Below are positions 34,312 to 39,487 of a stretch of 64,000 nucleotides of DNA, one piece after another. This DNA comes from Acidovorax sp. 210-6 (GTDB lineage Bacteria > Pseudomonadota > Gammaproteobacteria > Burkholderiales > Burkholderiaceae_C), in the NCBI RefSeq assembly GCF_010020825.1, contig NZ_JAACJE010000001.1, forward strand, positions 3,720,001-3,784,000, written 5' to 3'. The notes beneath the pieces were generated by a model that saw only the letters and a program-made list of their open reading frames with translations, searched no databases and was not told the DNA's origin. A program made the position numbers and the translations under genes. Position 1 is the first letter of the stretch. Every line of letters starts with the position of its first letter.

Positions 34312-35237
34312 TGAGCGCCTCTTTTGCCCCCGTTCTGGACGCTGCACGCCATGCAGCCGGCTCGCAGCATTATCCCCAGGGCGCCCTGTATGTGGTGGCC
34401 ACCCCCATCGGCAACCTGGCAGACATCACGCTGCGCGCTCTGCATGTATTGCAGCTGGCCGACACCTTGGCCTGCGAGGATACGCGCCACAGCCACAGCC
34501 TGCTGCGCGCCTACGGCATCGACAAACCCCCCAGCCAGTGGCTCGCCGTGCACCAGCACAACGAGGCCCAGGCCGCGCAGGAGGTCCTGGCCCGTTTGCA
34601 GGCAGGTCAGCGCGTGGTTTACATGAGCGACGCAGGGACCCCCGGCATCAGCGATCCAGGCGCACGCCTTGCCGCCGCTGTGGCGACAGCGGGTTTGCGT
34701 GTGCTGCCTTTGCCGGGTGCCAGCAGCATCACCACCGCGTTGAGCGTTGCGGGCGCCGTGGCGCAGGGCGGAGGTGACCAGGGTTTTGTGTTTGCTGGGT
34801 TTCTTCCCACCCGCAGTGCAGAACGCAAGGCCGCCGTGGAGATGCTGCGCACCGAACCCCGCTGCATCGTTGTGCTGGAGGCACCGCACCGCATCGCCGA
34901 TCTGGCCCAGGCACTGGCCGTACTGGAGGAGCGCCCGGTCACCCTGGCGCGGGAATTGACCAAGCAGTTCGAACAAATCTCCACCCTCCCCGCCCACCAG
35001 GCTGCGCCTTGGCTGCAGGAAGACCCCCAGCGCTGCCGGGGTGAATTCGTGGTGGTGCTGCATCCGGTGGCCAGCTCCAACGATGCCGAGGCCGGACTGC
35101 GCGTGCTCGATCGCCTGCTTCAGGAGTTGCCGCTGAAGTCGGCGGTACGCCTCGCGGCCGACATCACCGGCGTACCGCGCAACCAGCTGTACGAAGCTGC
35201 ATTGCAGCGAAAGAACGCGCCAGAGCAAGAAGGCTGA
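34311..35237 (+). CDS. rsmI: 16S rRNA (cytidine-1402-2'-O)-methyltransferase
   Basis: The 308-residue SAM-dependent enzyme methylates the 2'-OH of C1402 in the decoding centre of 16S rRNA. Motifs are LYVVATPIGNLADITLRALH, ACEDTRHSHSLLRAYGI, VVYMSDAGTPGISDPGARL with the SAM-binding turn, and LPGASSITTALSVAG. The TTG at 34311 is chosen because AAGGA lies six bases upstream and no ATG precedes the conserved sequence. The C-terminal domain ends NAPEQEG before a bidirectional terminator. The yraN-rsmI divergent arrangement is common. Confidence 0.93.
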   Translation: MSASFAPVLDAARHAAGSQHYPQGALYVVATPIGNLADITLRALHVLQLADTLACEDTRHSHSLLRAYGIDKPPSQWLAVHQHNEAQAAQEVLARLQAGQRVVYMSDAGTPGISDPGARLAAAVATAGLRVLPLPGASSITTALSVAGAVAQGGGDQGFVFAGFLPTRSAERKAAVEMLRTEPRCIVVLEAPHRIADLAQALAVLEERPVTLARELTKQFEQISTLPAHQAAPWLQEDPQRCRGEFVVVLHPVASSNDAEAGLRVLDRLLQELPLKSAVRLAADITGVPRNQLYEAALQRKNAPEQEG

Positions 35238-35251
35238 GACGCCCAAAGCAA

Positions 35252-35287
35252 AACGCCCAACTGAACACAGTTGGGCGTTATTTTCTT
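35252..35287. terminator. Bidirectional rho-independent terminator
   Basis: AACGCCCAACT pairs with AGTTGGGCGTT around a six-base loop. T-rich runs follow on both strands (ATTTTCTT on plus, TTTTGCTTT on minus). It ends rsmI and, before the island inserted, would have ended the tRNA-Phe transcript from the other side. Confidence 0.85.
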
Positions 35288-35334
35288 GGTGGCCTGGGAC
35301 GGAATCGAACCGCCGACACAAGGATTTTCAATCC
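35287..35334 (-). repeat. Attachment-site repeat: displaced tRNA-Phe 3' end
   Basis: These 48 bp are identical to 39412-39459 and cover the tRNA-Phe sequence from anticodon-loop side to CCA. No acceptor or D-arm sequence follows, so this is not a functional tRNA. The next 170 bases to the first island gene hold no recognisable feature. Confidence 0.92.
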
Positions 35335-35504
35335 ACAAACAAAAGCCCGTTGAATCAACGACTTGTCAAATTGTCCCTCTACAAACGGGTCACTTTCGTA
35401 CGCGGCCGTTCCAAGGGTAAATCTTAAACAAGGGCGCGATTGTAGAAGGCCTGAGCCTTGACGGGCCCTGATTCAATAGATAAATTACGGCCCGTCACCT
35501 ATGT

Positions 35505-36086
35505 GTGAGGCATCAGCGCAATGCTGACTGTCGGTCAACTCCGAGAGTTGATCCAGCGCGTTCTCCGGTCAAGCCCGAGCGTGCACCTCGTGACTTCCTT
35601 ATCGAAGTTCTTGATGCATTCTTGGAGCTAACATTGCCCTCTCCACGTCAAAAGCGCCGCCAGCGCGCATTTCAGCAACAACAAGGCCTCTGCTTTTACT
35701 GCCAGCGTCCCATGGTACCGGCGACCGCCGCAGGTGCGATCAACCGCTGCACAGCGGAGCACCTGATCCCAAAAGCTGACCGGGGCACCGACGCCCAGCG
35801 GAATCTTGTCGCTGCATGCTGGTTCTGCAACCATCATCGTCACGAGGGCCGGCGAAATGCCCGAACGCCGGCAGAGTGGGCAACCTACGTCCGTTATCAA
35901 GTGCACTGCGGACGTTGGCCAACTGCCTTCACTGTAGCCGCTTCGATTTCGTCAGAAATCGATGCGGAACTAAGGGCAACTGAAAACCCCTCCGAACTGA
36001 TATCCTGCGCGGATGGTCAAGCCGAAATCCAACACCCCTCCCCTGACGTCCGAGCAAGCCGCGCGCTTTGCGGAGATAGCGCGTGA
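35505..36086 (+). CDS. HNH endonuclease domain protein (island gene 1)
   Basis: Up to 193 residues. The HNH core is GLCFYCQRPMV, then AEHLIPKADRGTDAQRNLVA and ACWFCNHHRHEGRR, that is CxxC, the His-containing strand, Asn and a second CxxC. It is a likely metal-dependent DNA-cutting domain. The start is uncertain: GTG 35505 is the longest choice, but family-like sequence begins only near PERAPRDFLIEVLDA, so a TTG near 35620 is possible. The C-terminal 45 residues overlap the next gene by 74 bases. It may be defence, exclusion or transfer cargo; nothing in the sequence decides. Confidence 0.7.
   Translation: MRHQRNADCRSTPRVDPARSPVKPERAPRDFLIEVLDAFLELTLPSPRQKRRQRAFQQQQGLCFYCQRPMVPATAAGAINRCTAEHLIPKADRGTDAQRNLVAACWFCNHHRHEGRRNARTPAEWATYVRYQVHCGRWPTAFTVAASISSEIDAELRATENPSELISCADGQAEIQHPSPDVRASRALCGDSA
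35521..35631 (+). CDS. Possible 36-residue leader peptide
   Basis: A short frame starting MLTVGQLRELIQRVL overlaps the start of the HNH gene in another frame. The beginning looks protein-like, resembling small phage-type proteins with an LTVGQLRE start, but it stops after 36 residues. It may be a broken gene, a leader peptide or chance. Confidence 0.2.
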   Translation: MLTVGQLRELIQRVLRSSPSVHLVTSLSKFLMHSWS

Positions 36087-36381
36087 AGCGGTGCACAACT
36101 TTTCCGGCACCAGCGACGAGCTGGAGGCTGCGCTCGGCATGTACGTCCTGGGCGTTTACATGGGCTGGAAACCACTGGTCCTCATGCACAGCAAGAAGAC
36201 GATTCGGAAGTACGAACAGATTCTGGGCATCACCGTGCGCGACGAGTTTGCAGAGACGGGGCCCAACTCGGAGCGCTCCAAGGCCTACATGATCTCTCGC
36301 ACCGTTTCGAACTTCTGGAAGGCTGTCTCGGGCGAAGACAAGTCAATCGACAAAAGCGAACGGAAGCTGATTCAGGGGTAA
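36013..36381 (+). CDS. Hypothetical protein (island gene 2)
   Basis: The 122-residue protein begins MVKPKSNTPPLTSEQAARFA and is mostly helical and charged, with one moderately hydrophobic segment near MYVLGVYMGWKPLVLM. I recognise no family. It starts inside the HNH gene and ends shortly before the repeat-palindrome region in front of rep. Its position suggests an operon with the HNH gene and possibly a regulator, immunity or copy-control role; this is speculation from context only. Confidence 0.6.
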   Translation: MVKPKSNTPPLTSEQAARFAEIAREAVHNFSGTSDELEAALGMYVLGVYMGWKPLVLMHSKKTIRKYEQILGITVRDEFAETGPNSERSKAYMISRTVSNFWKAVSGEDKSIDKSERKLIQG

Positions 36382-36386
36382 TCCAA

Positions 36387-36460
36387 GTCTCCTTTATGCA
36401 ACAGGGGAATTGAATTCTCCTTGACGGTATTTCATGTCTCCTTCAAAGTAAGGAGACATG
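36387..36460. promoter_or_regulatory. TCTCCTT repeats and palindrome at the rep start
   Basis: The motif TCTCCTT occurs at 36388-36394, 36416-36422 and 36437-36443, and inverted as AAGGAGA at 36450-36456. The last two form a perfect palindrome, CATGTCTCCTT-6 nt-AAGGAGACATG (36433-36460), which contains both the ribosome site AAGGAG and the ATG of rep. It could be a Rep binding or nicking origin, an operator, or a hairpin blocking rep translation. Confidence 0.6.
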
Positions 36461-37339
36461 AATGCACCCTTTCTATCCCAACACTTGAAACAGCCGCCGG
36501 CTACGGCGGTTGAGACGCTGGCGCGGACGCAGCGGAGCGGGGCCGCGCCAGCGGCGCAGCCGCTGAGCGCTGGGCTTGTCTCAATTAAAACAAGTGACAC
36601 GCTACTCCCTGAAGAAGTAGAGATAGACCAGAAGAAGGCACGACTCACCCGCCTTCGGCGCTCTGTCCTCACTGCTGCCCATCTGTTCCAACAGCCGTGG
36701 TCCGGATTCAGGACTCGCACGGCCATGCTCACGCTCACCTACCGCGACGTAGGAGCGTTTGAGCCTTGTCATATCTCCCTGCTGATCAAGCACATCCGCC
36801 AGTGGCTGCAGCGCCGCGGCTATCGAATGTTGTACGTGTGGGTGGCAGAGCTGCAACAGCGTGGCGCCCTGCACTACCACGTGCTCATCTGGCTCCCCAA
36901 GGGCCTGACTCTCCCCAAACCCGACAAACAAGGATGGTGGCCGCATGGAAGCACACGAATCGAATGGGCCAAGCGCCCTATCGGATACCTCTGCAAATAC
37001 GTCAGCAAACTGGATATCGCGGGCGGACTTCCGAAGGGTGCTCGACTTCACGGAGCGGGCGGATTCGTCCAGGCCGCTCAGCAAATTCGACAATGGTTCA
37101 ACCTGCCCACATGGCTCAAGCATCTCGCCGGAGTCGGCAGCCGCTTTGTGCGAGTCAAAGGTGTTGGCTTGGTGGACCGGGATTCGGGGGTTTGCGTGCA
37201 ATCGCCCTGGCGGGTGTCCGTCAGCGGCAAAAGAGTCACTGCTCAAAAGGTTTTCGAATACATCGGGGGAATGACAAACGTCGCAGGTCCTTACTCGTTC
37301 CTTGGTCGCCCGACCCTTTTCGCACCTGTGGCGCCATGA
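36458..37339 (+). CDS. HUH rolling-circle replication initiation protein
   Basis: The 293-residue protein carries the two signatures of HUH Rep nucleases: the metal site ALHYHVLIWLP (His-x-His) near residue 138 and the tyrosine motif GYLCKYVSKLD near residue 178. MLTLTYRDV upstream fits motif I. It should nick one strand at an origin and stay bound through tyrosine, as Rep proteins of small plasmids and filamentous phages do. No helicase or primase domain is present. The start lies within the palindrome described separately. It overlaps the DUF4224 gene by four bases, so rep, DUF4224 and integrase form one operon. Confidence 0.82.
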   Translation: MNAPFLSQHLKQPPATAVETLARTQRSGAAPAAQPLSAGLVSIKTSDTLLPEEVEIDQKKARLTRLRRSVLTAAHLFQQPWSGFRTRTAMLTLTYRDVGAFEPCHISLLIKHIRQWLQRRGYRMLYVWVAELQQRGALHYHVLIWLPKGLTLPKPDKQGWWPHGSTRIEWAKRPIGYLCKYVSKLDIAGGLPKGARLHGAGGFVQAAQQIRQWFNLPTWLKHLAGVGSRFVRVKGVGLVDRDSGVCVQSPWRVSVSGKRVTAQKVFEYIGGMTNVAGPYSFLGRPTLFAPVAP

Positions 37340-37563
37340 ACACCGATCCCCTATTCCTCACTCCCGAAGAGGTGAGCACGCTCACAGGCTTTCGGCTTCC
37401 ATCGCGCCAAGTGCAATGGCTGCGCACCAAAGGCTGGCGCTTTGAGATCAACGGCAATAGGCAAGCCATCGTGGCCCGCAAATACGCAGAAAAGATGCTG
37501 GGTTGTGGAGCGCCAGAGGAACAGAGCTACCAGCCCAATTTCCGGGCTTTGCAGGGGGCGTGA
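37336..37563 (+). CDS. DUF4224 domain protein
   Basis: This 75-residue protein contains FLTPEEVSTLTGFRLPSRQV followed by QWLRTKGWRFEINGNRQAIV, the pattern of DUF4224. These small proteins typically sit immediately before phage-type integrases and may act as excision or regulatory factors. It overlaps rep by four bases at its start and the integrase by one base at its end (TGATG), so its expression is tied to both. Confidence 0.8.
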   Translation: MNTDPLFLTPEEVSTLTGFRLPSRQVQWLRTKGWRFEINGNRQAIVARKYAEKMLGCGAPEEQSYQPNFRALQGA

Positions 37564-38540
37564 TGGGTCGGCGTAGGCAGTCCAATTTCGATGATCCCCC
37601 GCGCTTTCACCGCAAGGGCAACGTCTGGTATCACGTAAGCGGCACCCTGCCCCGCGTCTGGACCAAGCTCTCCAACGACCGCGCCGAAGCCCTGCGCCTC
37701 TGGGCCCAACGTGAGGGAGTGCGCGAGGATGAATCCACCCGGCTTTTCTCGGTGGTGGCCAGGCGGTACGTGCGCGAGGTGTTCCCTATCAAGAGCGTTC
37801 AGACCCGGCGCGACAACGACAAGGAACTCGCCAACCTGCTGCGCGTGTTCGGTCACATGCCCATCGAGGCCATCGCCCCTATGCACATCCGCCAGTACAT
37901 GGACCTGCGGGGCCAGGTGGCAAAGGTGCGCGCCAACCGCGAGAAGGCCCTGTTCTCGCACATCTTCAACAAGGCCAGGGAATGGGGCTTCACCACCGCT
38001 CAGAACCCCTGCCAGGGCGTGAAGGGCTTCAAAGAAATGGGCCGCTCGCGCTATGTCACCGACGAGGAATTCGACCGCGTGCGTGCCAACGCACATTGCA
38101 CGGTGGTCGACGCCATGGATATTGCCTTGCTCACCGGCCAGCGGCCCGCCGATGTGCTCAAGATCAAGCGCACTGACATTCGGGATGGCGCCTTGTGGAT
38201 CGTGCAGAACAAGACCGGGGCACGCCTGGGCATCGAGATAACCGGCGAGCTGGCCGTGGTCATCGACAGGATCAACCAACGGCCCAGGCAGGCAATCAGC
38301 ACATTTCTGATTCAGGACCAGAACGGCCAGCCGCTCAGCCAGGGGGCGCTGCGCTCACGCTTTGACAAGGCGCGCACGCTGGCAAAGGTGGATTTTCAGT
38401 TCAGGGATATTCGGGCGAAGGCGGCCACTGACACAGGGGATCTAGGGCACTCACAGAAGCTACTGGGGCACAAGAATCGAGAGATGACCGAACACTACGT
38501 CAAATCTCGACAAGGTGAGCGAGTTAAACCATCTCGGTAA
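37563..38540 (+). CDS. Tyrosine-family site-specific integrase
   Basis: The 325-residue recombinase has an N-terminal SAM-like DNA-binding domain (about residues 60-150) and a catalytic domain. Catalytic residues visible are Arg in LLTGQRPADVLKIKR near 193, Lys in QNKTGARLG near 216, the second Arg in FRDIRAKAATD near 283 and the C-terminal LLGHKNREMTEHYVKSR with His and the nucleophilic Tyr near 311. The first motif of the His-x-x-Arg pair has Asp in place of His, as in some phage integrases. It presumably catalysed insertion into the neighbouring tRNA-Phe. Its end overlaps the convergent HNH gene by 17 bases. Confidence 0.93.
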   Translation: MGRRRQSNFDDPPRFHRKGNVWYHVSGTLPRVWTKLSNDRAEALRLWAQREGVREDESTRLFSVVARRYVREVFPIKSVQTRRDNDKELANLLRVFGHMPIEAIAPMHIRQYMDLRGQVAKVRANREKALFSHIFNKAREWGFTTAQNPCQGVKGFKEMGRSRYVTDEEFDRVRANAHCTVVDAMDIALLTGQRPADVLKIKRTDIRDGALWIVQNKTGARLGIEITGELAVVIDRINQRPRQAISTFLIQDQNGQPLSQGALRSRFDKARTLAKVDFQFRDIRAKAATDTGDLGHSQKLLGHKNREMTEHYVKSRQGERVKPSR

Positions 38541-39321
38541 ATGCTGTGCCACCGGCACGCTCTGCTTTGCGTCGCTGGAATTCGGCCTCGTCGAGAAACA
38601 CCGCGACAAGCATTGCCATTGAGCCGCGAAACTGGATCCAATAGCCGGAAGCCTCGCCATCACCAACCACGCCGAAACGGTAGCGGAACTGGTCTGCCAG
38701 CGGAGTCACGTCCCTTCGCAGAACAGGAACGCCTCCAAGAAGCGCGAAAAACTTCTCCGGCATATTGGAGTTGAGGAGATCGGCGTTGGTAAAGGTATGC
38801 GTAACTACTTTCCCGGTAGACGGAAGTATTTTTCCAGCATGAAGGTAGTGCAGTGCTTTCCCCAGCTTCTCTGCATACCTCTGAGTCACGTCTATGACGG
38901 TAGCGGGCACGGTCACCATGTAGACCTCCCCTATACCTGGGAGAGTTGTTCCCCTGACACCTCTATCTCGCAAAAAACGCCGCGTTTCGATACGAGACAC
39001 CTCACGCAAGCTTTGGTACACCTGCGGCAGTCGAAAGCGTAGACCGCTAAGCACGCGCTCAAGGTCAGCTTCGCCTTCTGCTGTTAAATCCGCCATGACC
39101 CCCAGCCTGACGAGTGCGGCCATCACAAGCTCATCGTCGCTTGAACCTGCGTTGCATGCCCTGCAAGCGGGGAAAACATAGCCCTCTGGCCATCGTCGAT
39201 TCAGGAAAAGGGATCGGGCAGGAAGGTGATCTTCTGTCTCTGCAGGTGTTTGCCCGCCACAAAAACAGCATATTGGGTTTCGAGTCAGAAACTCTCTCTT
39301 TCGCTGACTGTGACGACCCAT
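38524..39321 (-). CDS. HNH endonuclease-like protein (island gene 6)
   Basis: The 265-residue protein starts MGRHSQRKREFLTRNPICCF at 39321 with AGGA seven bases upstream. The nuclease core is CCFCGGQTPAETEDHLPAR, then FPACRACNAGSSDDELV (two CxxC pairs, His and Asn). About 190 residues of unrecognised sequence follow, including a region ending TAFTEMV. It is unlike the other island HNH protein apart from the core. It lies opposite and convergent to the integrase, at the end next to tRNA-Phe, a typical place for cargo. A defence role is possible, but no partner gene is visible. Confidence 0.75.
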   Translation of the reverse strand: MGRHSQRKREFLTRNPICCFCGGQTPAETEDHLPARSLFLNRRWPEGYVFPACRACNAGSSDDELVMAALVRLGVMADLTAEGEADLERVLSGLRFRLPQVYQSLREVSRIETRRFLRDRGVRGTTLPGIGEVYMVTVPATVIDVTQRYAEKLGKALHYLHAGKILPSTGKVVTHTFTNADLLNSNMPEKFFALLGGVPVLRRDVTPLADQFRYRFGVVGDGEASGYWIQFRGSMAMLVAVFLDEAEFQRRKAERAGGTAFTEMV

Positions 39322-39365
39322 CGCAATCCTATCTCTGCCGAAATTGTAGAAATTCAGACTTGAAT

Positions 39366-39402
39366 GTAGAAACGCCCCAGAACCCTTTCGGGCGCTGGGG
39401 CG
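39366..39402 (-). terminator. Terminator after tRNA-Phe, inside the island
   Basis: CGCCCCAG pairs with CTGGGGCG, and on the minus strand a TTTCT run follows. It lies between the tRNA and the HNH gene, so the island supplies a new terminator for its host tRNA and insulates its own cargo. Confidence 0.65.
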
Positions 39403-39411
39403 CATAAACAC

Positions 39412-39487
39412 TGGTGGCCTGGGACGGAATCGAACCGCCGACACAAGGATTTTCAATCCTCTGCTCTACCGACTGAGCTACCGGGCC
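39412..39487 (-). tRNA. tRNA-Phe (GAA)
   Basis: The 76-nt gene on the minus strand reads GGCCCGGTAGCTCAGTCGG in the D arm, GGATTGAAAATCC in the anticodon arm (anticodon GAA) and GGTTCGATTCC in the T arm, with CCA encoded. It is the intact copy; its 3' 48 bases are the integration target of the island. Confidence 0.97.

Follow-up and report, generated by a model that had tools for sequence, protein, structure and literature searches.

A small integrated element occupies positions 35287 to 39459 of a 64,000-nucleotide stretch of the Acidovorax sp. 210-6 genome (the whole stretch is referred to here as the window), and we regard it as a new variety of small, often defence-carrying integrative replicon. 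The reading that we favour, and consider likely, is that of a small, non-conjugative element in tRNA-Phe that leaves the chromosome in circular form and then replicates as a rolling circle, with excision and replication under one switch. The hallmark of the family to which it belongs is ORF2, a gene that the first-pass annotation of this DNA had listed as unknown, rather than the trio of Rep, DUF4224 protein and integrase, because other members have exchanged the Rep type and the excisionase for others. No paper describing the ORF2 element family was found in the literature searched, as judged by titles and the beginnings of abstracts.

Insertion of the element in tRNA-Phe

A repeat search of the region returned a single pair of perfect 48-bp direct repeats with a spacing of 4125, which serve as attL (35287-35334) and attR (39412-39459) and to which no strand is assigned. 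ARAGORN calls exactly one intact tRNA-Phe (GAA), on the minus strand at 39412-39487, and the right repeat copy is its 3′ part; the target gene has been kept intact. The left copy lies 49 bp past the rsmI stop codon, which ends at 35237. A perfect 48-mer within 6 kb is not a product of chance, and the identity of the repeat as the tRNA 3′ part, which the first-pass annotation had claimed, is confirmed.

Insertion is also visible in comparison with other members of the genus, where the tRNA-Phe region query was matched in all 26 genomes and 20 stretches from 18 genomes were read. The two genomes closest to the window's by rsmI identity (L105 and L106, at 93% and 91%) both represent the empty site, with the end of the rsmI match 52 bp from tRNA-Phe and a single copy of the 48-mer that has 2 and 0 mismatches, respectively. 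An empty site lacking the 48-bp match had been named as a finding that would argue against integration, but both relatives keep one copy and integration stands. The other 18 of the 20 stretches are uninformative on this point since rsmI lies farther from the tRNA or outside the stretch. One occupied site (L003, on the same contig as L101) contains the same core in the same tRNA between the same 48-bp repeats, with a Rep that is 94% identical and with different cargo; its int is interrupted by a gene that we read from its sequence as IS3-type. Remnants were seen in L107, which has an integrase fragment about 450 bp from tRNA-Phe, and in L103, where an integrase fragment and a repeat copy with one mismatch lie on another contig of that genome. 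In L102 and L113, about 4.6 and 1.7 kb, respectively, separate tRNA-Phe from rsmI, possibly as a result of other insertions.

The six genes that had been listed between the repeats are all present. HNH1 (35505-36086, plus strand) is an HNH endonuclease (PF01844, E 3.6e-7) whose relatives, 32-38% identical, lie upstream of ORF2 in L009 and L082; it overlaps ORF2 (36013-36381, plus strand, 122 aa), the proposed regulator, in a different frame. These are followed on the plus strand by Rep (36458-37339), an HUH rolling-circle initiator (PF23343 REP_ORF2-G2P, 3.6e-34; phrog_2969, 1.7e-44), by the DUF4224 protein (37336-37563), a probable excisionase or Xis (PF13986, 2.7e-11; PHROG 'excisionase', 9.7e-17), and by a tyrosine integrase (37563-38540; PF00589, 1.4e-14). 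HNH2 (38524-39321, minus strand) matched no Pfam family and the HNH assignment is weak (PHROG, 6.5e-5); the slot adjoining attR in which it lies is filled with other genes in other family members. Rep and Xis overlap by the four nucleotides ATGA and Xis and Int by one nucleotide, so the overlap of the three genes that had been pointed out earlier holds, and they form a tight block behind a conserved promoter-like region. The statement that capsid, secretion and conjugation genes are lacking also survived our family scans, in which none of the six proteins matched a capsid, secretion or relaxase family.

The integrase of the window has the sequence FRDIR, as do its relatives in L004, L006, L009 and L082, whereas HxxR is the usual motif in most tyrosine recombinases. 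A TTGACG with an inverted repeat is found at 35455-35500, upstream of HNH1, and could be that gene's own promoter.

ORF2 and a family of elements with exchangeable parts

Searches of Pfam, PHROGs, NCBIfam and PADLOC, of plasmid records and of 50,697 phage records gave no match for ORF2. Its structure model is helical, and part of it weakly resembles a helix-turn-helix. Of 399 Burkholderiales genomes, 15 contain a homologue (14 of the 392 of high quality, the window's own counted), as do 4 of 370 genomes sampled from the class (own genome counted). An integrase lies within 5.5 kb of ORF2 in 30 of the 36 copies examined, including that of the window, and the 21 loci obtained from the ORF2 search, the window excluded, contained an integrase in 17 cases and a Rep in 17. 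End repeats of at least 25 bp surround 20 ORF2 elements in all (10 of 13 loci, the second copy in L007, and 9 of the 21 loci); those without repeats among the 13 are L006, L007 and L012, the last of which is broken by a contig end. We define the family by an ORF2 homologue that has an integrase and an HUH Rep nearby and repeats of a tRNA or transfer-messenger RNA (tmRNA) at the flanks, and the window element fits this definition. The earlier suggestion of very small satellites or integrative-replicative plasmids that form a family agrees with these observations, inasmuch as the family exists. Two members stand in tandem at one tRNA-Cys in L007 (887-6744), which suggests repeated insertion at one site. 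A related element (L009) is found in Diaphorobacter nitroreducens DSM 15985.

Relatives of the window Rep are present in 25 of the 399 genomes of the bacterial family, of which eight have an ORF2 homologue adjoining rep and 12 have a Zot gene 2.3-3.0 kb away, which identifies these 12 loci as inoviruses. Three (G057, G163 and G284) have neither ORF2 nor Zot, and two with fragmentary matches (G038 and G156) stand outside the Zot count. Four HUH Rep types alternate among the ORF2 elements: the window type, PF23343 (G2P); PF02486 Rep_trans in L214, L215, L217 and L231; PF05144 Phage_CRI in L232; and PF05840 gpA in L225 and L234. When the G2P label is placed on the ORF2 tree, well supported branches force at least three changes. 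In the window Rep, the residues H139-Y-H141, Y177 and Y181 are invariant across 11 aligned sequences.

The integrase varies among members, as do the targets, which include tRNA-Phe, -Cys, -Lys and -Arg, tmRNA, and a tRNA-like repeat without a called tRNA. The cargo is equally diverse and several members bear defence or toxin-antitoxin genes. These comprise Drt5 in L005 (PADLOC, 5.6e-197), a CBASS-like oligonucleotide cyclase (6.1e-122) with two 2TM effectors in L215, GmrSD in L216, ParE in L007 and HicAB in L082; elsewhere we found a weakly TIR-like protein with an 8xMP membrane domain (L010), a ClpP-like protease (L003), MT-A70 (L217), and Vsr with a methylase-like protein (L218). The scans made with defence models gave no match for the cargo of L003, L004, L007, L008, L009, L082, L217 and L223.

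A putative replication origin and a predicted switch

Within rep, starting 114 bases from its start, lies a 24-bp site on the plus strand, GGGCTTGTC-N9-ACAAGT (36572-36595), which is probably the nick region of a double-strand replication origin. CTTG occurs in the nick site of phiX174/pC194-type initiators. A G+C-rich inverted repeat is located just upstream, at about 36516-36553. Exact copies of the motif were present in 11 of the 14 element Reps (2, 2 and 4 mismatches in the remaining three), in all three mini-plasmids and in both Xanthomonas phages checked, and also in 12 of the 23 other genome loci and 29 of the 68 viral contigs; in a shuffled control, one of 110 regions came within 2 mismatches. 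The mini-plasmids, from Halomonas (L235, 1571 bp), Sulfuricurvum (L236, 1452 bp) and Acinetobacter (L237, 1595 bp), encode the same Rep family, and rep fills about half or more of each record.

This possibility is supported by codon usage at the site. Among the 47 of 108 scanned sequences in which the peptide L[VI]..TS could be located, which are related and hence do not represent 47 independent events, the motif codons are nearly fixed (GGG in 45, and CTT, GTC, ACA and AGT in 46 each), although the same codons account for 16, 21, 39, 18 and 9%, respectively, of the synonymous codons elsewhere in the same rep genes. Since selection on amino acids alone would not fix synonymous codons across Reps that are 35-50% identical, the conservation points to selection at the level of DNA.

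Upstream of the block of three genes, a sigma-70 type promoter for rep-xis-int is predicted at 36421-36449 on the plus strand (computed positions), consisting of TTGACG and CAAAGT separated by 17 bp; the -10 box matches TATAAT at 3 of 6 positions. A 13-bp perfect inverted repeat (36431-36462, no strand) is centred on this -10 box and covers the Rep start codon. In 17 of 19 intergenic regions the best inverted repeat outscores 95% or more of the mononucleotide shuffles, and in 10 of the 19 its centre lies within 2 bp of the chosen -10 box, including the Rep_trans elements L214 and L219. Because the palindrome is present with two Rep types, it is probably the operator of ORF2.

These features suggest the following life cycle. 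The integrase would recombine the 48-bp core with the 3′ part of the tRNA and leave the tRNA intact, a step for which the anatomy and the empty sites provide support. In the resident state, rep-xis-int may be kept off at one promoter, with the palindrome over the -10 box and start codon as control site; we lean towards ORF2 as the protein that reads it. On release, Rep, Xis and Int would be made together, as the overlapping genes imply, and excision and replication would start at once. Rep is then predicted to nick the 24-bp site in its own gene, giving rolling-circle replication with double- and single-stranded circles. The circles could enter new cells aided by something else, and then reintegrate, while the slots beside the core hold exchangeable genes, in several members anti-phage or toxin-antitoxin genes, that would pay for the element's stay.

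Relationship to filamentous phages

We agree with the earlier statement that the mechanism of spread is not evident. One candidate for the missing help is a filamentous phage: the element would be a minimal satellite with its own integrase and defence cargo, and a helper inovirus would package its single-stranded circles and export them. We regard this as possible but rather doubtful. It is favoured by the phage records: the 10 in which a related Rep was found all belong to inoviruses, the best being 40% identical. Four Xanthomonas filamentous phages (Cf1c, XacF1, phiLf and phiXv2) have Reps about 40% identical to that of the window, and in the two that were checked, XacF1 and phiXv2, the putative origin lies in rep and is identical to the window's at the fixed positions. 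These phages carry a full set of structural genes, unlike the window element, and the annotation of phiXv2 includes a XerC/D attachment site. Of the four Rep types, three (PF23343, PF02486 and PF05144) are known from filamentous phages. In addition, ORF2 directly follows zot in two inovirus loci (L224, 6612-11349, and L240, 1094-6387), which contain a CRI-type Rep, a coat gene (coat B-like in L224) and Zot besides the ORF2 homologue; the genome of L224 also has a separate element with ORF2 and integrase (L225). As a side observation, a zot fragment (72% identical) in L216 is located about 3.3 kb to the left of ORF2, just outside the left end of the element.

The window element itself has an inovirus-type Rep and origin, but the Zot/pI assembly ATPase and coat genes were unmatched in it. 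Other observations argue against an inovirus helper. The window's genome had no Zot at E 0.001, and Zot was absent from 8 of 9 examined genomes with window-type (G2P) ORF2 elements. Among the 399 Burkholderiales genomes, Zot was found in 4 of the 15 with ORF2 versus 58 of the 384 others, which is not a significant enrichment (Fisher p 0.27), and three of those four hits are weak (29-41 bits). When 11 elements were compared with 101 records, every match but one (L008, bin 7750) lay in a 250-bp bin that overlaps rep, and the comparison therefore showed no packaging signal in common. Short peptide patterns retrieved ORF2 from two IMG/VR contigs only.

A small size, rolling-circle replication and the lack of structural genes are shared by the window element and the inovirus satellites RS1, TLC and a plasmid satellite; TLC is a satellite of this kind, and the plasmid satellite of an inovirus is reportedly that of Schmid et al. 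2024. In contrast to these satellites, the window family has its own tyrosine integrase acting at tRNA or tmRNA genes and, in several members, defence cargo, and any helper is a candidate only. RS1 is described as an inovirus satellite in PMC11389934. That the elements make up a novel family of satellites of filamentous phages, spread over Burkholderiales and further Proteobacteria, about 3-9 kb in size, with ORF2 as regulator, swappable phage-type initiators, their own integrase and a defence slot, is in our opinion slightly less probable still. If it were true, satellites would ride in filamentous particles and shield their host from lytic phages.

The inovirus-type rep and origin might instead be what is left of an inovirus prophage in decay, from which the structural genes have gone and in which rep and an integrase remain. 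We find this very improbable, because decay would not yield a recurring architecture: the compact gene set, which lacks structural genes, is seen repeatedly across many genomes between perfect end repeats, its four Rep types replace one another, and its ORF2 was unmatched among the phage records.

Other possible routes of spread and comparison with known systems

A different explanation is that the integrative element is mobilizable, with Rep doubling as a relaxase and the circle being moved by a co-resident conjugation system. HUH Reps are related to relaxases. The relationship reported between the MOBT family and Rep_trans proteins (PMC11389934) would be in line with such a role, which we nevertheless consider improbable. 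The family scans matched no relaxase or mobilisation family, although oriT and host conjugation systems were not looked for, and a related Rep was found in five plasmid records, each of them typed as non-mobilizable.

In layout, the nearest known system is pSAM2, an actinomycete integrative and conjugative element (AICE), which is much larger than the window element. According to PMC3218068, its int, xis and repSA form one operon, comparable to the overlapping rep-xis-int block of the window, and the window Rep has a weak Pfam match to RepSA (3.4e-5, below the cut-off). In contrast, pSAM2-type AICEs are elements of Actinobacteria with Pra and an FtsK/SpoIIIE-type Tra, whereas the window element is from Proteobacteria, has ORF2 and no Pra, and none of its six proteins matched such a Tra.

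It is also possible that the elements are spread by tailed phages or by natural transformation, as are other defence-carrying tRNA and tmRNA islands; we hold this no more than a tentative proposal, and transfer by tailed phages would seem as likely as transfer in filamentous particles. Among the tmRNA islands of Pseudomonas described in PMC12595487, which have an integrase, direct repeats and defence genes, one was moved by a jumbo phage, and many related islands carry a gene labelled 'inovirus Gp2-like'. The I55-type islands of that report resemble the window family in the tmRNA target, the direct repeats, the defence cargo and the inovirus Gp2-like protein, but are much larger (the shared region is about 18 kb) and have AlpA, YqaJ and RadC. 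The phage-inducible chromosomal minimalist islands (PICMIs) of Vibrionaceae are satellites with as few as six genes, packaged as concatemers (PMC10803314), which rolling-circle replication could supply. They resemble the window element in the very small number of genes, and a PICMI gene overlaps int by ATGA; they protect their hosts and are ranked by the authors of that report among the smallest satellites. They differ in having a core of integrase, AlpA and primase, a fis site and a virulent helper phage; the window element is in tRNA-Phe, and the family scans matched neither AlpA nor a primase in it, a point against a tailed-phage route.

Implications

Defence genes travel between bacteria on elements whose vehicles often remain obscure. 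A vehicle much smaller than those of the ORF2 family is hard to conceive, since they consist of a regulator, an initiator, an excisionase and an integrase, one of each, and a slot for cargo. With ORF2 as a handle, further members can be sought, as can new defence genes in its neighbourhood, and elements this compact lend themselves to direct tests of the switch, of replication and of transfer. The 24-bp site conserved at the level of DNA, as one predicted replication origin, connects the chromosomal elements with filamentous phages and with plasmids of 1.5 kb.

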